The translations under genes and the position numbers were made by a program. The notes below the pieces were generated by a model, which had not been told where the DNA came from, did no database searches, and saw only the letters and a program-made list of their open reading frames with translations. This document shows, piece after piece, positions 1,654-56,983 of a stretch of 64,000 nt of DNA (its first letter is position 1; every line of letters starts with the position of its first letter). This DNA is from Lentisphaeria bacterium (GTDB lineage Bacteria > Verrucomicrobiota > Lentisphaeria > Victivallales > Victivallaceae), in assembly GCA_017457105.1 (NCBI GenBank), contig JAFTIA010000009.1, forward strand, positions 1-64,000, read 5' to 3'.

Positions 1654-4600
1654 TTACTCCTTGAAGATAATTTCTCCATTTATTGAGATGTCAAAATCAA
1701 TTCCGGCAAATAATGTATGGTTTTGGTATGTACTTTGACTGAGGCACAGAAGAGGAACGCCCGTTTCCCATTCAATGTTGTATGATTCTTGCAAATATTT
1801 TTTGGCGCGAGCTTCCCGATGCCAGCGTAAACAAATTCGAAGATCCTTTTTTAATTCGGTAACGATATATAAGCGTTTACTGAGCTGTTCTTTCGGCATT
1901 ATTTTCAACTCTTCCGGGGCATTTCGGTAAAATAATACCGCAACGCCTGGATTGATTATGCCAACGAAATCTCCTTTTTCATCGCGCATCTGCGGTGGAA
2001 TATAATCCGGCGAACGATGTTCTTTAGCCCATTCCCACAACGAAATAGGTTCATAATGGTAAGTGTGTTGAGTTGTCGGAGTTTTATTATCTCGATAAAG
2101 GGCGATCATAAAATTTCCGCCTTTAGCCGTTTCTGCATAATAACTATTTTTGTATTCTTTTGTGCTGATATAACTCTGCCTTTTAATAGGCAGCAGAGTT
2201 CTTTTGTTTTCTTGGATTTTCCAAGCTCCATCATCTTGTTTTTTGATCTTGATATCCCTATAAATTCTGACTTTTTTAATGACAGGGCCATTGAATGAGC
2301 CATCTTTCGTCTTCATGTAAAATGCAGTAGAAAATATATCTTTAAATATTACACCTGTTTGCATCTTTGAATTAGCTTGAGCAATAATTGATTCTCGAAC
2401 TGTTTTATCAACGATAAGTTCAAATGAATCCATTGTTTTAAAATAATCAGCATTCAATGGAGTACGAAGTACTGTGCGAATATTTTGTTTGTTATCCATT
2501 ATTTTGCCGTAATAGGTTAAATCATGCAGTTGACCGCGGACGGTATCGCCGGCGGCCTTGACATTTTTCACGATATCTCCATCTTTGGTCTGGAGAGGAG
2601 ATGCAAGGTAAACCTTGTTTCGTTTTGTTTGTTTTGTTTCATTGTGTTTTTTTAGGTGTTTAACTAATACACCTTCAACCGTTTTGCGAACATCTTCAGG
2701 GAAGGTTGGCCAGGGATATGTTAATTCTAACGCCAGTTTCCCTCCACTGTAAGATTTTTCGTCATGATAAGCACAAGATATTTTGTTTAATGCATCTCGA
2801 TCAAGAGCGGCAATAACTAAAGCATCAATTATGTGATGTGTATAATCTATACGGTCTTTCTTTGCTGATTGCTCCTGCAAGCCCCACTCTTTACGAGCGA
2901 AGGCTGTTGCTGTTCCGCTGTTTGCAAAAACATTTTCGTATCTTGATTTTAGAAATTGCAATGCATGCCTGGTCATTACTCCTGTTGCCGCCAGTTGCCG
3001 ACGACTGAAATCACCATCTAATTCTTCACGGCAAATCGTGAACGATAGAAGCTTTTTTCGCCAATATTTCCTTTTTTCATATGTTTCTATCACTTTTTGT
3101 CTGGCTTCTGCACGTGCCGGTGATGATGGGGGAGTTGATTTTAATTTGTTTACCGCTGCAGCATGAGCTTTTTCGGCATTTTCAAGTTTTTCATAAAAAC
3201 CTGCTGTCGCTAAATTATTTTCTATTGTATCAAATCCCAATGCTGGAATATTGTAATTCGGACATTCCGTGGGCAATTTGCCGATTTTAATATCTCGATT
3301 ATATGTACTGTTGCAAAGGGTCAGATTTTCCAAATTATTTTCGCCCCCAATAGAGCGGGGGATCGTATGTTCTATATCAAGTAATTTAAACTCATTGGTG
3401 AAAATTTCACTTTGCGTAATCATTTTTCCGGTATACAGGCAGCGGTGATTTTGTTCCTCCCATAACCGCCAACGCAAAATCTGCTCATCGGAGGGGATGA
3501 TGTTATATTCGGCAAATTCCTCAATTGCTTGTTTGCGCAATTTTTCATTGTCGCGTTGTATTCCTGCGATTGCCATACGCGTGGCTTTATCATTGACACT
3601 GCGGGCAAGTTCAATATGGATTTCTGTTTTTTCATCTATCTTTCCAGTTTTACGCAAATCATTTACCAATCTGCGTAAGATGGTCAGAGAACGGTGTACC
3701 ATCGGATTATAGATCATGCCGAGGTCAATATGCGGCAATTTGCAGTCATCATCAAAAACTGCTTCATAATTTGAAGGTTCTTTAAATTCATAAAGAGCAT
3801 TAACTTGAGATTGCGTGCACTGCCATTTTTCTTCAAGGAGCTGTTTAAATCGGGCTGTCAAGCTGAGCAAATGCTTTTTTTCGTGCGAAGCAAGGTTGTT
3901 TTTCTCCCAGTTATAGTCATCAAGGCATTGTTCAAAATCAGCAAGAACTTCGTCCTTGACAGATATGTATCTTTCATGCCCGAAAATATCTGGTAGTTTG
4001 GCAAGAAGTACTGCGTATGGTTCAATATATCCGGCTTCCAGGAACGGTAATATTTTTTTGATGGCATATAAACTGTACTTTGCATACCCTTCTGCAATAT
4101 TTATCTTTATAAATTTATCTGCTTGTTCATCTGATAATCCAAGACGTTCTCGTGCGAATTTTTTGAATGCGATGCTTTCTCCATCAAAATCACACTTAAA
4201 ATATTTTAAGCCGTCAAAGACCGTTTGAATGTCCATCACCTTTTCATGTTGTTTCACATCAAGATAATTACGCGTCCAGGAGAATATATTTTCGCAATCA
4301 AGAATATTCTGCAGTTGATAAATTAATGCGGAAGAAGAGCACGATTGGTCATCTCGATAGTTAAATTCGGTCAATTTCCCCTTGAAGAATTTTTTATTCA
4401 GAGTACTTTTGATTTTTTCAAATTTGAAACTTGGGCTTTTGACCATAAAACACGATAAGGCTGTCTGCCGCTCATTAAAATCAAGAAAGCGTTCTGGAGC
4501 ACCATCAACCCTGACTTTTATAGTATTTACGAAGCAATACATCCTGTATTTTTCAAAAAGAGGGTGAGCCTTTAATGCTCTTGAATATTTTTTCTCAAGA

Positions 4601-50888: not shown

Positions 50889-51620
50889 ATGAAAATCGCA
50901 GTTTATAATATCGCTTACGGAACAGGCAGTCCCAAGGGGGAGGCGCGGCGGCTGATCACGGGACATCATTATCTTGCTGCACCGGAACGACCGCTCCGGA
51001 AGATCGGTACATTTTTTCAGGGGGAGAACCCGGACATTATCGGTTTATTGGAAACGGATCTTGGCAGTCCGAGAACGCACGGAGTCAATCAGGCGGAAGT
51101 CCTTGCCGGGTTGACGGGGCTGACGCCGGTCTGGTTCCGGAAATACGCTCCCGATTCCAAATTGCTTTCACTTCCCTACTGGCGGAGTCAGGGGAATGCC
51201 GTGCTGGTTCCGGAACGGGAGCCGGATGCCGTCGCCGGTTTCATGCCTTGCGGGATGAAGAAACTTGTGTTATCGGTACGGAGTTGCGGGATCCGTTTTT
51301 TTCTGGTGCATCTGGCATTGACCTATCCGGTGCGGCAGAGGCAGATCCGGTGGCTTGCGGAAACGCTGGAAGGTGTGAAAGAACCCATGATCCTTGCGGG
51401 GGATTTCAATACCTTCCGCGGGGCAGGGGAGTTGGCGGAATTGTGTCGCAGATGCGGGTTGCATTCTGCCAACAGGGAACTGCATGCAACATATCCAGCG
51501 TGGAAACCGGTGAAAGTGCTGGATCACATTCTTTATTCCGGCGAGCTGAAACTGGTGGATTTTCAGGTGCCGCACCTGCCTTTTTCCGACCATCTCCCGC
51601 TGGTGGCGGAGTTTGCGTAA
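50889..51620 (+). CDS. Endonuclease/exonuclease/phosphatase-family protein
   Basis: The 243-residue protein has the EEP fold: start MKIAVYNIAYGTG, IIGLLETDLGS with the metal-binding Glu, the catalytic His in VHLALTYP, AGDFNTFRGAGE, and the end VLDHILYS and SDHLPLVAEF. It could act on a nucleic acid, sugar phosphate or phospholipid; the family cannot tell. Its ATG follows the RNB stop codon directly, so it is in the same operon as mcsA-mcsB-RNB. The stop TAA starts the A-tract at which the left MITE-like element was inserted. Confidence 0.9.
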   Translation: MKIAVYNIAYGTGSPKGEARRLITGHHYLAAPERPLRKIGTFFQGENPDIIGLLETDLGSPRTHGVNQAEVLAGLTGLTPVWFRKYAPDSKLLSLPYWRSQGNAVLVPEREPDAVAGFMPCGMKKLVLSVRSCGIRFFLVHLALTYPVRQRQIRWLAETLEGVKEPMILAGDFNTFRGAGELAELCRRCGLHSANRELHATYPAWKPVKVLDHILYSGELKLVDFQVPHLPFSDHLPLVAEFA

Positions 51621-51625
51621 AAAAA

Positions 51626-51918
51626 GGCTGTGTACTAAACAATGACTGATTTTTCTATATAGCAATTTATTTGCTATACACCTGGTCTCTGCGAGGCTGG
51701 GTTCCGCGTGCTGAACGCACGCAGAACCGCAAGGCCCCGGAAAAAATCGCAAGCTGATTGCTTGCTGATTTTTTATTGGCGCGGGGGGCCGGGGCTTGCT
51801 ATTTAAGGGCTGCTCGCCCTTAAAAATCCCCGCAAGGGGCGGTTGCCCCTTGACCCGTCGCTTGACGATTAAAAATCGTCTGCGCTCCATAATATCAGTC
51901 TATGTTTAGTACAGAGCC
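51626..51918 (+). mobile_element. MITE-like element, left copy
   Basis: This 293-bp element has 25-bp terminal inverted repeats (GGCTGTGTACTAAAC.. and GGCTCTGTACTAAAC.., 22 of 25 identical), no coding capacity and many internal hairpins. A second copy lies inverted at 56024. It is flanked by A-tracts (7 As left, 9 right), which may be the target duplication. It separates the EEP gene from the rhaA terminator. Confidence 0.85.
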
Positions 51919-51959
51919 AAAAAAAAACTGCCGCAACCTTTAGCGGTCTGCGGCAGTTT
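51919..51959 (-). terminator. Rho-independent terminator of rhaA
   Basis: On the minus strand, AAACTGCCGCA pairs with TGCGGCAGTTT (11 bp) over a 13-base loop, followed by nine Ts. The MITE-like element abuts the T tract. Confidence 0.93.
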
Positions 51960-51976
51960 GTATGGACCCGGAAAAG

Positions 51977-53224
51977 TTACTTGCGTTCCGCCAGTGTTTT
52001 CTTTTCGTAGGAACGGATCATTTCCAGCCATTCCCCGTCGGTGGGGACTCCGGCTCGGCGGCAGTATTCGTTCCAAACAGCCTGAACCGGCATGGTTTTC
52101 ATGGTTTCCATGGTGACAAGGCGGCCGGTGAAATCTCCTTTCTTTTCCATTTCTGCCAGTGCCTTTGCCGGGGCAAGCATGGCTGTCAGCAGGGCAAGAC
52201 GGGTGGCTCGGGCCCCGATGGCCCATGCAGCGATCCGGTTGATGCTGCCGTCAAAGTAATCCAGCCCGATATGCACCTTGTTGTCCAGCTGGTGGCGGAC
52301 TACTTCTTCGGCAATGGCGCGGAGTTCATCGTTGAGGATCACGGCGTGGTCACTGTCCCAGCGGACGCCGCGGCTCACATGAAGCATCAACTCATTGCTG
52401 AAAAGCATCAGGGAACTGATTTTGTCCGCAATGGATTCGGTGGGGTGGAAGTGACCGGAGTCCAGACAGATCATCTTGCCGCGGCTCAAGGCATAGCCCA
52501 TATAGAATTCATGGGAGCCGGTGACATAACTTTCACTGCCGATACCGAAAAGTTTGCTTTCCAGAGAATCCCGGTTGCATTTCTGATCGATTTTTTCAGC
52601 AAAGATCTCATCCAGAGATTCGATCAGCCGCTTGCGTGGGGCCATGCGGTCTGCGGCAATATCTTTGTACCCGTCCGGGATCCAGAAATTGGTGATGCAG
52701 CAGTTTTTCAGGCGTTTGCCGAAGGCTTCTGCAATTTTCCGGCAGGCGATGCCGTGGCGGATCCAGTATTTGCGGACAGCCTTATCCGGGCTGCTCAAAG
52801 TCATGCCGCTTGCCGCCATGGGGTGTGCAAAGAATGTGGGGTTGAAGTCCAGCCCGATCCTGCGGTCCGCCGCCCAGTCCATAAAGGGGGCAAAATCGTC
52901 CGCTGTAAGTTCATCCCGGCCCGGTTTTTTCTTGCCGGAGGGTTCTGCATAAATGGCGTGGAGATTGACCCGTTTGGGGCCGGGGATCAGGGTAAAAGCG
53001 AAATCCAGATCCGCACGCAGTTCATTTCCGTTGCGGGCTCGGCCGGGGTGGTTTCCGGTCACGGCAAGGCCGCCATCCAGAGCCCCTGCATTTTCAAATC
53101 CGGCAACATCGTCTCCCTGCCAGCAATGCAGGCTCAAGGCGATTTTGTCCAGCCGGGCGAGAACCTTTTCTGTATCCACGCCGATTTCCTGAAATCTGGT
53201 GTTTGCCATTTTGTAGCAATTCAT
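51977..53224 (-). CDS. rhaA: L-rhamnose isomerase
   Basis: RhaA converts L-rhamnose to L-rhamnulose in the cytoplasm. The 415-residue protein matches E. coli RhaA in length. It shows SLHCWQGDDVAGFE near the N-terminus, GLDFNPTFFAHPMAASGMTLSSPDKAVRKYWI (in pieces), the TNFWIPDGYKD motif, LCLDSGHFHPTE-like ICLDSGHFHPTESIADK for metal binding and VRWDSDHAVI. No rhaB, rhaD, rhaM or transporter gene is nearby, so the rest of the pathway must be elsewhere. The ATG at 53224 follows AGAGG; the longer open frame to 53293 is not supported. Confidence 0.95.
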   Translation of the reverse strand: MNCYKMANTRFQEIGVDTEKVLARLDKIALSLHCWQGDDVAGFENAGALDGGLAVTGNHPGRARNGNELRADLDFAFTLIPGPKRVNLHAIYAEPSGKKKPGRDELTADDFAPFMDWAADRRIGLDFNPTFFAHPMAASGMTLSSPDKAVRKYWIRHGIACRKIAEAFGKRLKNCCITNFWIPDGYKDIAADRMAPRKRLIESLDEIFAEKIDQKCNRDSLESKLFGIGSESYVTGSHEFYMGYALSRGKMICLDSGHFHPTESIADKISSLMLFSNELMLHVSRGVRWDSDHAVILNDELRAIAEEVVRHQLDNKVHIGLDYFDGSINRIAAWAIGARATRLALLTAMLAPAKALAEMEKKGDFTGRLVTMETMKTMPVQAVWNEYCRRAGVPTDGEWLEMIRSYEKKTLAERK

Positions 53225-53265
53225 TATAAACCTCTTTTTTGTGATTGAACTGAATTTTGTTGAAA

Positions 53266-53293
53266 AATATATCACAGGAGAAATATCTTGCAA
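53266..53293 (-). promoter_or_regulatory. Promoter of rhaA
   Basis: On the minus strand, TTGCAA (53293-53288), 16 bp, TATATT (53271-53266), about 40 bases ahead of the start codon. Confidence 0.65.
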
Positions 53294-53311
53294 GTTTTTC
53301 CGGAAAGAAAC

Positions 53312-53339
53312 TTGTTTTTTTGTTTTTTCTTGCTATAAT
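53312..53339 (+). promoter_or_regulatory. Promoter of the receiver protein gene
   Basis: TTGTTT (53312-53317), 16 bp, TGC-TATAAT (53334-53339), an ideal extended -10, about 30 bases ahead of the start codon. Confidence 0.75.
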
Positions 53340-53369
53340 GTATGCGGACAAATAAGGAGAGAACAGCTC

Positions 53370-53771
53370 ATGACAGAACGCCTGAAAGATTTGCCGCAGG
53401 GCACCGAAACGATTTTGATCGTGGACGATCACGAAACGATCTGGGATTTTCTGGTGGAAGCATTGCAGATGCTCGGATATTCGGTGCTTCTGGCGGAAAA
53501 TGGCGAAGATGCCGTCAGTATTTACCGCGAAAATCCCGGTGCCATCGATCTTGTTTTGCTGGATATGATCATGCCCAAACTGGGGGGGCATCAGGCATTT
53601 TACCAGTTGCGTGCCATTGATCCGGATGTAAAGGTTCTGCTGTCCAGCGGGTTTGTATCCGAAGAAGAGGTCAATGACCTGCTTCAGCAGGGGGCGTGCG
53701 GCTTCCTGCCGAAACCCCACCGCCTGCCGCAGGTGGCAAAAGCCATCCGGAATGCTCTGGACGGAAAATAA
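53370..53771 (+). CDS. Stand-alone response regulator receiver protein
   Basis: This 133-residue protein is a single CheY-like receiver: ILIVDDHETIWDFL has the acidic pair, VLLDMIMPKLGG the phosphorylatable Asp, LLSSGFVSEE the Ser/Thr switch and GFLPKPHRLPQ the conserved Lys. There is no output domain. Its sequence is typical of receivers attached to hybrid kinases. No kinase gene lies beside it. The ATG at 53370 has AAGGAG upstream; earlier in-frame codons are not used. It stands between rhaA (divergent) and the second beta-helix gene, 64 bases downstream. Confidence 0.9.
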   Translation: MTERLKDLPQGTETILIVDDHETIWDFLVEALQMLGYSVLLAENGEDAVSIYRENPGAIDLVLLDMIMPKLGGHQAFYQLRAIDPDVKVLLSSGFVSEEEVNDLLQQGACGFLPKPHRLPQVAKAIRNALDGK

Positions 53772-53835
53772 TTTTTTCTGCAGTATTTTCAACCATTTAT
53801 TGCCTGCCGATATTTCGGCACGGGAGGAGTTTTTT

Positions 53836-55977
53836 ATGAAAAAAACATTGCTGCACAGTGTTTGTGCCATTGGTGTTTGTGCCGGGATGCAGCTTGCTGC
53901 TGCTGAATACCGTGTGTCGGCCGGGATGGATCTGGAGGAAGTGAATCAGAAAGTCCAGCCGGGGGATACGGTCATTTTGTCAAAAGGCCGCCATGTGGGA
54001 CAGATCAAGCCCCACCGTTCCGGAGAGCCCGGCAAACCCATTGTCTACCGCGGGGAAGCCGGGGCTTTGCTTTATAACGACAAAGTTTCTGTGATCGAAC
54101 TCCATAATCTTGCTTATATCACGCTGGAAAATCTGGCCGTGACCGCCGGGCCCGGTAAAGCCTGGTTCGATCAGGTGAATTGCAAATATATCACGGTGCG
54201 GAAATGCAGTTTTACGAATGCTTCCGGCTTGTGGGCGCCTTTCAAGGTGAACGGTGCGGAATTCTGCCGGTATGAAGATATTCTGGCGGACGGCTGCATC
54301 AAGGCCCCGGAGGCTCTGGATGGCCGCAGCGGTTTTACCGGGGCCAATCTGATGGATATCCACAAGGCGCAGAAGTGTGTGTTTGAGCGCATCCATACCA
54401 TGCGGGGCGGGCATACGCCTTTTGTGCAGTGGTACACTTGCAGTGATAATGTGATCCGTGACTGCATGTTTGATTCCCGCTGGGCCCGGAATTTTGAATT
54501 TTTCAATGCCCCGGGGATGTTGATCGAACGGTGTGTTATTGTGAATGCGTATCATGGTGCCAGCAGTGCGGATACCGGGGCGAAACTTTTTATTCACAAC
54601 TCTATTTTCCGCCGGAATCTTATTGTCCGGAATGCGGATATACCTCTGGTGGCAAACAGTTACACTTATCCCGGAATGCCGCCCTTCAGTATCCGGGACA
54701 GCCGTCTTTACTTCAATACCTGGAGCGAAAACGGCACTGGCGGTTTCTCTCTCTACGATGCTTGGCAGGGGGAACAGCGGGTGTTGAACAATGTTTTCAA
54801 AAACAACATCTGGAGCCGTAATAATCCGGGCGGCGATCCCATTTGCCTTTTTGTCAATCGCACCGTGCGCGGGGAGGAAAACCAATTTCGCGGAAATATC
54901 TTTTTCGGCAGAAAAACCGGTGATCCTGTAATCTGGCATTCCGGGCAGTATCTTTCGCTGGAAAAAGCCTCTTTTTTCTGTCCTGAAATGTTCAAAGGCA
55001 ATTACGATCTGGATCCGGAATTTAGCGATCCGGATCAGGATCAATTCAGTCTGAAAGAAACAAGTCCTGCCCGTAACCGGGGCGTGGCTCTGACGGTGAC
55101 CCGCTCTGCCGGAAAGGGCCGAACGGTGGAAGTTGCAGATGCCCGGTATTTTTATGACGGATTCGGTATTCCCGGGGAAAAGGGGGATGAGATCCGCATC
55201 GGTACCAAAACTGCCCGGGTCGTTGCCCGGGATCTGGAAAAGAATACGCTGACATTGGATCGGGATTTGGCTTGGGTGATCCATGAAGAGGTGAATTTGC
55301 CATTCTATGGATCTGCACCGGATCCCGGTGCTTATGAGTACGGGATGGAAACTGGACCGTTTTTGAAGGATCGGGTGGGGTCGGTTCCTTCGGATTACAA
55401 GTGTGATTATGAGCCGGAGCATATCAAAGAATGGGCGGCGTGGTGGTTTGCGGGCCGTCAGGGACCCAGTGCCATGGCGCTGGACTTGAAAGAACCGGCG
55501 GCGAAAGGGAAAGGTTCGGCAAAAGTATTGTATGTGTACCGTCATCCGAAGTTTGCGGACCGGGTGCTGGCGGTGGGATACAGCGATGAGCATCCTGCGA
55601 AGCCCTCCAATCTCTCCTGTTATATCAGCCCGGCCAATTGGGATGTGACGAAATATCCTTATGTCAAATTTTTCTATCGTATTCCGAAAGATGTTCCTGT
55701 AGGGTTGACGGTTCGTTTCTTCGGGAAAGCCGGACGGCCGGAACGGGTTTATCTGGGCGGCAGTCCTGCTTACAGTTCCGGCAAAGCTCCCCGCGCGGAT
55801 CTTTATCCGTTGAGGGATGACGGTAAGTGGCATGAAATCACGGTGGATCTGCGGAAGGCTCTGCAGTTTGCCCCGGACACAGCAATCATTCAGGATTTTG
55901 GCTTCCGTACCGAAGGCAATGGCAAACCCGGCCAGTGTTTCTGGTTTGACGAGTTTGAGATCCTGCCTGAAAAGTAG
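53836..55977 (+). CDS. Secreted right-handed beta-helix protein, paralogue of the gene at 7138
   Basis: The 713-residue protein has a signal peptide (TLLHSVCAIGVCAGMQLAAAE) and then AGMDLEEVNQKVQPGDTVILSKGRHVGQI, the opening of a parallel beta-helix with many short ladders (NLAYITLENLAVTAG, CKYITVRKCSFTNASG, NVIRDCMFDSR, MLIERCVIVN). Next are DARYFYDGFGIPGEKGDE, a GAYEYGMETGP linker, and a C-terminal beta-sandwich ending WFDEFEILPEK. The order matches the protein at 7138-9786, which has an extra N-terminal domain. It probably acts on or binds plant-type polysaccharide. The ATG at 53836 has GGAGGAG upstream. Confidence 0.85.
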   Translation: MKKTLLHSVCAIGVCAGMQLAAAEYRVSAGMDLEEVNQKVQPGDTVILSKGRHVGQIKPHRSGEPGKPIVYRGEAGALLYNDKVSVIELHNLAYITLENLAVTAGPGKAWFDQVNCKYITVRKCSFTNASGLWAPFKVNGAEFCRYEDILADGCIKAPEALDGRSGFTGANLMDIHKAQKCVFERIHTMRGGHTPFVQWYTCSDNVIRDCMFDSRWARNFEFFNAPGMLIERCVIVNAYHGASSADTGAKLFIHNSIFRRNLIVRNADIPLVANSYTYPGMPPFSIRDSRLYFNTWSENGTGGFSLYDAWQGEQRVLNNVFKNNIWSRNNPGGDPICLFVNRTVRGEENQFRGNIFFGRKTGDPVIWHSGQYLSLEKASFFCPEMFKGNYDLDPEFSDPDQDQFSLKETSPARNRGVALTVTRSAGKGRTVEVADARYFYDGFGIPGEKGDEIRIGTKTARVVARDLEKNTLTLDRDLAWVIHEEVNLPFYGSAPDPGAYEYGMETGPFLKDRVGSVPSDYKCDYEPEHIKEWAAWWFAGRQGPSAMALDLKEPAAKGKGSAKVLYVYRHPKFADRVLAVGYSDEHPAKPSNLSCYISPANWDVTKYPYVKFFYRIPKDVPVGLTVRFFGKAGRPERVYLGGSPAYSSGKAPRADLYPLRDDGKWHEITVDLRKALQFAPDTAIIQDFGFRTEGNGKPGQCFWFDEFEILPEK

Positions 55978-55985
55978 GCAGACTG

Positions 55986-56023
55986 CAACAAAAAAGGACC
56001 TTGCAAAGGGTCCTTTTTTGTTG
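55986..56023 (+). terminator. Bidirectional rho-independent terminator
   Basis: CAACAAAAAAGGACC pairs perfectly (15 bp) with GGTCCTTTTTTGTTG around TTGCAAAG. It follows the beta-helix gene. The last 8 bases form the left copy of the target duplication of the right MITE-like element. Confidence 0.93.
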
Positions 56024-56315
56024 GGCTCTGTACTAAACATAGACTGATATTATGGAGCGCAGACGATCTGGATCGTCAAGCGACGGGTCAAGGGGCAACC
56101 GCCCCTTGCGGGGATTTTTAAGGGCGAGAAGCCCTTAAAAGATAAGCCCCGGCCCCCCGCTCCAATAAAAAATCAGCAAGCAATCAGCTTGCGATTTTTT
56201 CCGGGGCCTTACGGTTCTGCGTGCGTTCAGCACGCGGAACCCAGCCTCGCAGAGACCAAGTGCATAGCAAATAAATTGCTATATAGAAAAATCAGTCATT
56301 GTTTAGTATACAGCC
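56024..56315 (-). mobile_element. MITE-like element, right copy with 8-bp target duplication
   Basis: This 292-bp copy is the reverse complement of the left copy, with about 15 differences mostly in hairpin loops. TTTTGTTG flanks it directly on both sides (56016-56023 and 56316-56323), a perfect 8-bp duplication. Termini are GGCTCTGTACTAAAC.. and GGCTGTATACTAAAC.. It has no gene. Confidence 0.88.
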
Positions 56316-56335
56316 TTTTGTTGTTGATAATTTGC

Positions 56336-56983
56336 CTATTTTCCCGGGAAAATCTCCAGAAAACAGCGGAATCCAGCCGATTCCGGAAGTTCAAAGGCCG
56401 GTGTGATCCGGCAGCGGGCTTTTTGCAGCTGCGTCGAATCGGCTTCCGCCCGTTCCGGGGACTGGTAGAGAATGTACCTTCCGCCGGGAGCCGGGAATTT
56501 GGAGGTGTCACGGTAAATACTTGCCGCTTCCGCTACCGCCCGGGCCGTAATAATATCAAATTTCCGCATAAATTCCTGTTTGCGGTTCAGTTCATTGGCT
56601 CTGCCATGGATGGCGGTCAGGTTGGTCAACCCCAGTTTCTTTGCGGCATCAGCCACAAAGGCGATTTTTTTCCCCGTGGAATCAATGCTGGTAATGGTCA
56701 ACTGCGGATAGGCAAGGGCAAGGATCAGCGACGGAAAACCCGCTCCGCAGCCGATGTCAGCGATCCGGAGCGTTTTCTCTGCCAACTCCGGAAAAAATTT
56801 GCCGATACTCAAACTGTCTGCCGCATGTTTTATAGCAAAATCCTGTTCGCCAAGGATACGGGTCAGGTTGGTGATCTTATTGGCTTCTTCCAGAATTTCC
56901 CGGAGTCTGGCACATTGAATGGCAAATTCCGGGGCATTTTTTACATGACACTCCTCTGCAAAGGCGGCAAGATCAAAATTCAT
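56336..56983 (-). CDS. rsmG: 16S rRNA (guanine-N7) methyltransferase RsmG
   Basis: RsmG methylates G527 of 16S rRNA using SAM. The 215-residue protein shows the Rossmann motif IADIGCGAGFPSLILALAYP, NLTRI at the N-terminal helix, DSTGKKIAFVADAAKKLGL and the family FDIITARAVAE. Loss of RsmG gives low-level streptomycin resistance in other bacteria. Its ATG overlaps the stop of the upstream membrane-protein gene (ATGA). The right MITE-like element lies 20 bases after its stop. Confidence 0.95.
   Translation of the reverse strand: MNFDLAAFAEECHVKNAPEFAIQCARLREILEEANKITNLTRILGEQDFAIKHAADSLSIGKFFPELAEKTLRIADIGCGAGFPSLILALAYPQLTITSIDSTGKKIAFVADAAKKLGLTNLTAIHGRANELNRKQEFMRKFDIITARAVAEAASIYRDTSKFPAPGGRYILYQSPERAEADSTQLQKARCRITPAFELPESAGFRCFLEIFPGK

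Follow-up and report, generated by a model that had tools for sequence, protein, structure and literature searches.

A new MITE family in a Lentisphaeria draft genome, with an insertion bias at intrinsic terminators

Two short repeats in a 64,000-nucleotide stretch of DNA from a Lentisphaeria bacterium (hereafter the window) were found to be copies of a MITE family that is new, of a known kind, and marked by an insertion bias at intrinsic terminators. The element shows the defining features of a MITE: it is 292-293 bp long without a transposase gene, is bounded by 28-nt terminal inverted repeats, makes a fixed 8-bp target duplication (TSD), and is dispersed, multi-copy and recently moved. As a whole, the observations are best explained by a MITE with shared termini and an 8-bp TSD that has spread recently, uses A/T-rich intergenic targets and is over-represented at terminators; we assign this reading a probability of about 0.92. 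The window is contig C56 of a draft genome (G000) of 2.68 Mb in 114 contigs, 87% complete and with 52% GC.

The two window copies are inverted relative to each other, are separated by a spacer of 4,105 bp, and show 95.2% identity over the 293 columns of a pairwise comparison. These values agree with an earlier sequence-only reading, in which the pair was described as about 95% identical, in opposite directions and about 4.1 kb apart. The length of 292 bp given there was correct for the right copy, while the left copy measures 293 bp; likewise, the terminal inverted repeats are imperfect as described, but extend over 28 nt instead of 25 bp, with complementarity of 86% and 82%. The proposed terminus GGCT(G/C)TGTACTAAAC holds except at one end of the right copy, which reads GGCTGTATACTAAAC. 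For the 10-mer TGTACTAAAC, the window has 3 occurrences where 0.03 would be expected. The features of both copies and of their surroundings are as follows.

51619-51625, no strand: left-hand target duplication of the left copy, 7 A, matching the other side at 7/8
51626-51918, minus strand: left MITE copy, 293 bp; R end at 51918, L end at 51626
51626-51653, plus strand: L-end terminal inverted repeat of the left copy, GGCTGTGTACTAAACAATGACTGATTTT
51749-51765, no strand: internal palindrome of the left copy, GCAAGC-TGATT-GCTTGC with T-runs on both sides, terminator-like on both strands, one of the interior palindrome chain
51891-51918, minus strand: R-end terminal inverted repeat of the left copy, GGCTCTGTACTAAACATAGACTGATATT
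51919-51927, no strand: A-tract (T-tract of the minus strand), target duplication and U-tract of the rhaA terminator
51925-51959, minus strand: rhaA intrinsic terminator hairpin, AAACTGCCGCAGACCGC...GCGGCAGTTT, -21.8 kcal/mol, abutting the R end of the left copy
55991-56018, plus strand: intrinsic terminator hairpin 3' of gene 53836-55977, AAAAAGGACC...GGTCCTTTTT, -15.0 kcal/mol, abutting the R end of the right copy
56016-56023, no strand: target duplication on the left side of the right copy, TTTTGTTG
56024-56315, plus strand: right MITE copy, 292 bp; R end at 56024, L end at 56315
56176-56192, no strand: internal two-way terminator-like palindrome of the right copy
56316-56323, no strand: target duplication on the right side of the right copy, TTTTGTTG

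Neither copy holds a plausible gene, as had been claimed from the sequence: both are intergenic by codon-based gene finding, and the ORFs that cross them are chance ones. For the gene calls, a codon model was trained on the window; among the genes it recovers are rhaA, rsmG and their neighbours. The left copy occupies the gap between the convergent genes 50889-51620(+) (endonuclease/phosphatase-like) and 51977-53224(-) (L-rhamnose isomerase, rhaA), and the right copy that between 53836-55977(+) (beta-helix protein) and 56336-56983(-) (rsmG), again convergent. The segment between the inverted copies carries rhaA, a response regulator and the beta-helix protein gene, and inversion of this segment could occur by recombination between the two copies. 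Composite transposition of the 4.1-kb segment was ruled out, since the outer flanks mismatch and a separate duplication accompanies each copy.

The window copies are two of many. A search of the genome with the full element gave 42 matches, with 40 candidates scored; as the scored matches understate copy number, insertions were counted from the termini. The 16-base terminus gave 85 matches in the genome at no more than 1 mismatch and its reversed control gave 0, and all 85 proved to be ends of the MITE, of its derivatives or of other gene-less elements. From the distinct flanks (48 at R ends and 41 at L ends), the number of insertions is at least 48 and at most about 75, far above chance. Of the 228 contig ends, 58 lie inside a copy, as is to be expected when short reads are assembled across a short repeat. 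Recent movement is indicated by several copies with 98-99% identity to the left one of the window, and insertions inside genes called by the codon model numbered 0.

The perfect 8-bp duplication of the right copy and the position of the left copy in an A-tract, both pointed out from the sequence alone, were confirmed, with TTTTGTTG on both sides of the former and flanks matching at 7/8 for the latter. The TSD length was tested on 42 complete copies with both flanks, taken from this genome and related ones, the expectation being obtained by shuffling flanks between copies. The best length was exclusively 8 bp: 26 of the 42 match at 7/8 or better, against 2.2 expected, and no copy in this set gave a duplication of 9-11 bp. 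Several complete copies are without duplication, as expected for old or recombined ones. The 8 junction bases are 90% A+T in this 52% GC genome and 91% in relatives. The earlier description of the elements as non-autonomous and MITE-like with 8-bp duplications stands.

The interior of the element was absent from the 100 related genomes searched, in which its termini are present. Termini are high-copy in four other genomes of the same family (matches per strand: G037, 92 + 90; G050, 48 + 44; G030, 26 + 35; G034, 14 + 10). These four are the Lentisphaeria bacterium MAGs RGIG5419, RGIG4167, RGIG5270 and RGIG5319, from sheep and roe-deer colon. An order-wide terminus search found one to few copies in nine more genomes and 0 in the same-genus genome G001. 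The MITE interiors fall into separate groups, and the termini are conserved over copies and genera; shared termini on differing interiors have the appearance of elements mobilised in trans. Lengths of about 275-310 bp are the commonest, and shorter and longer forms exist, down to 98 bp. In a different family of the order, a 40-bp element consisting of two facing termini only (GGCTGTATACTAAAAATCAGTCTTCTTTTAGTACAGAGCC; G120:C175, L290, 573-612) is apparently the smallest relative. RGIG5270 has a possible composite unit (contig JAFVPG010000009.1, L132 / L150), in which a complete MITE and an inverted solo terminus enclose a sodium/glutamate-symporter-like membrane gene.

A transposase partner was sought by several routes. 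No pair of termini enclosing a transposase gene was found in the genome or its relatives. When pairs 0.4-4 kb apart were screened, a 1,830-bp span in RGIG5270 proved to be no IS: it combines a MITE and a solo terminus with a symporter-type gene. The IS with the same ends that the sequence-only reading had expected elsewhere in the genome was not recovered, all terminus matches being gene-less. Thus, of the two things on which that reading had staked its case, further copies are present and a matching IS was not found in the genome or the relatives searched. More widely, no autonomous partner with these ends was detected in the MAG (87% complete) or its relatives, or among plasmids, phages and viral contigs; its absence from MAGs is weak evidence, because binned assemblies readily lose IS elements that are present in many copies. 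No related element appeared in the plasmid, phage and viral collections, and 23 matches of the 16-mer in viral contigs look like chance, 0 being paired with a second terminus. Candidate IS families were rejected in turn: IS1595 (transposase in 3 of 78 genomes, none with MITE ends), IS6/IS240 (IS6 domain in 0 high-copy genomes), IS4/IS5 (DDE_Tnp_1; no element with matching ends in MITE-bearing genomes) and IS256 (transposases in the genome and relatives inspected; ends mismatch). The sole DDE_Tnp_1 match of G000 belongs to an IS1380 element whose ends differ from the MITE termini. On G000:C86 (L311, 171-1574) lies an IS1380-family transposase gene that looks complete (468 aa). A living partner is no strict requirement for a MITE; here, it has probably been lost from the genome or is too repetitive or too short for binning.

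Because its interior is a chain of palindromes, the element folds on either strand far more strongly than shuffled sequence does (z -10.8 and -12.6). A palindrome of this chain, with T-runs on both sides, is predicted to be terminator-like in both directions. Copies vary by entire palindromic blocks, such as GCAAGC-GCTTGC replaced by GCCAGT-ACTGGC in two copies; the GGTTC hairpin has several palindromic versions among copies, and some larger forms have extra blocks. Such hairpin swaps were noted by eye, without statistical count. A palindromic module, TCGGCTGTCGCTTCGCTCTCGAGCCTCC, is present in some MITE copies and in other gene-less elements of G000 (L017, L066, L091, L100, L075), which suggests that REP-like blocks are exchanged between repeats. 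One gene-less element of about 0.8 kb (G000:C77, L100, 1548 to about 2400) has a MITE-type terminus, GGCTGTGTACTAAACATAGACTGAT, and a degenerate other end, ACATTAGTACAGGGCC, with GC-rich tandem repeats, CCCGTCTCCGCTACGCTACGCCGTGGCAAG, inside and nearly matching 8-mers as flanks. Pairs of termini in the same orientation, a solo one and a second only 32-34 bp after it, were seen in G000:C52 (L086, 1500-1600), G000:C110 (L126, 1529-1562), G037:C133 (L031, 1501-1533) and L132 (about 3380-3440); they may represent an insertion nested in an older terminus, within its T-rich inner portion, or else what a recombination event left behind.

Two other identities were weighed against that of a MITE family of its own. 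Strong folding on both strands, the exchange of two hairpins between copies for other palindromes and the intergenic location would fit a structured RNA or regulatory repeat of the REP/BOX kind. Such a repeat does not account for precise 8-bp target duplications or for termini conserved over genera on differing interiors; moreover, the element has no match to an Rfam family, and RNAalifold on the gapped alignment gave 0 pairs with compensatory change, so that a conserved single RNA fold is not claimed. We therefore regard a non-transposable repeat as highly improbable. Derivation from ISL3, the kinship suggested by the sequence-only reading, is just as hard to uphold. ISL3 makes 8-bp duplications, its ends begin with GGC or GGT, and ISL3 transposases are present in 27 of 78 genomes of the family. 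The readable ISL3 ends of these relatives, however, are GG(C/T)TCTTC... and do not match the MITE termini GGCTsTGTACTAAAC, and no ISL3 transposase was found in this MAG.

Both window copies adjoin the foot of an intrinsic terminator and lie in its T-tract, and in both the R end faces the hairpin. The idea of a terminator bias arose from these two copies and was then tried on the remaining ones. A terminator, defined as a hairpin of -7 kcal/mol or lower with a T-tract and with its end 3-16 nt before the junction, was present at 23 of 89 ends, compared with a rate of 3% over all positions and 7% over A/T-rich ones; the junctions lay 3-13 nt from the hairpin foot. Among T-rich junctions, 22 of 40 had a terminator hairpin; of 342 distinct intergenic T-tracts, 50 had one (p=5e-8). 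For sites behind gene 3' ends, the figures were 18 of 26 junctions and 15 of 55 T-tracts (p=4e-4). This control was counted by tracts, not by positions, which avoids control inflation, and a tract was scored positive if any of its positions was positive; counts by position pointed the same way. Without the two window copies, the counts were 20/38 for T-rich junctions and 16/24 for those behind gene 3' ends. Orientation was also biased: R ends faced gene 3' ends at 37:11 and L ends at 16:21 (p=0.002, the two ends of one copy being not fully independent). In the relatives with the same termini, no clear enrichment was observed, either pooled (terminator at 7/47 T-rich junctions against 11%, p=0.25) or one by one (G037, 5/24 against 9% of T-tract positions, p=0.07; G050, 0/6; G030, 0/2). 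The terminator bias is thus a property of this element in this genome.

Because the bias was unseen in relatives sharing the termini, it may come from selection rather than targeting. Under pure selection, insertion would be random in A/T-rich DNA and copies would survive best behind terminators, where the 8-bp duplication restores the T-tract. The absence of insertions from called genes, the TSD of 8 bp and the lack of clear bias in relatives fit this account, as do both window sites, where the joined flanks give an uninterrupted, complete hairpin with its T-tract. Against it, other harmless A/T-rich intergenic spots behind genes are under-used compared with T-tracts beside hairpins, and selection should operate in relatives too. 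The alternative is an active preference of the element or its transposase for intrinsic terminators, that is, for a hairpin foot with T-tract beyond A/T-rich DNA as such, perhaps via an extruded hairpin or a paused transcription complex. The enrichment does hold when the T-tracts used for comparison are matched in composition and in their location behind gene ends, the placing of junctions 3-13 nt from the hairpin foot and the biased orientation point the same way, and both window copies and many others fit. However, the preference was not reproduced in three relatives with the same termini, which offer few T-rich junctions, and only 23/89 ends show a terminator at all. On balance, we consider it probable that terminators are tolerated and rather doubtful that they are sought out.

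The anatomy of the element suggests how it would move. A DDE transposase acting in trans would bind the ends of about 28 bp, GGCTsTGTACTAAACAwwGACTGATwTT, excise or copy the element, and join it to an A/T-rich 8-bp target via an 8-bp staggered cut. Mobilisation in trans is proposed because no transposase with these ends was found. Where the target is a T-tract, the 8-bp duplication would return the T-tract to the hairpin and the gene would keep its terminator; with its own two-way terminator-like hairpin on board, insertions should cost the host little. A stronger version, in which the MITE or its transposase has a built-in preference for the terminator foot or T-tract, the TSD regenerates that tract, and the two-way terminator aboard lets the element spread without harm to transcription units, appears unlikely to us.

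The literature searched gave no published use of this terminus, and none of the papers listed for Lentisphaerae and MITEs described such an element. With prokaryotic MITEs such as MITEAba12 (PMC6382973; review PMC10969869), the element shares a short, gene-less form of about 0.3 kb, terminal inverted repeats, TSDs, A/T-rich intergenic targets and many near-identical copies. MITEAba12 is 113 bp long, makes a 9-bp duplication and has a known IS partner, ISAba12 (PMC6382973); in contrast, the present element has GGCTsTGTACTAAAC... termini, an exact 8-bp duplication, a palindrome-chain interior, and no partner found. IS5-group elements with GGCTTTGTTGCACAAA ends, listed in the same paper (PMC6382973), make a 9-bp duplication; their first bases, GGCTNTGT, are alike and the rest of the terminus is different, a resemblance only. 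The BOX, RUP and SPRITE repeats of pneumococcus are small, structured and intergenic, SPRITEs being terminator-like (PMC10969869, PMC3049150). The element may be likened to them in form by description, while its termini and 8-bp duplications are its own. By analogy, the nearest known case of terminator insertion is IS1272/TnSha1 of the IS1182 family, which inserts at transcription-terminator hairpins; it cuts within the stem, part of which is deleted, and leaves no duplication (PMC4923244). Such a mode was ruled out here by the 8-bp duplications and intact hairpins: the present element lies at the hairpin foot or in the T-tract, spares the hairpin and generates an 8-bp duplication.

If true targeting is involved, it would represent a safe-site strategy for a DDE transposon in which, unlike with IS1272, the target terminator stays intact. 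The element explains about a quarter of the contig ends of the draft genome, and its termini are common to several genera. These findings describe a large and recently active MITE family in a little-studied gut lineage, the Lentisphaeria.
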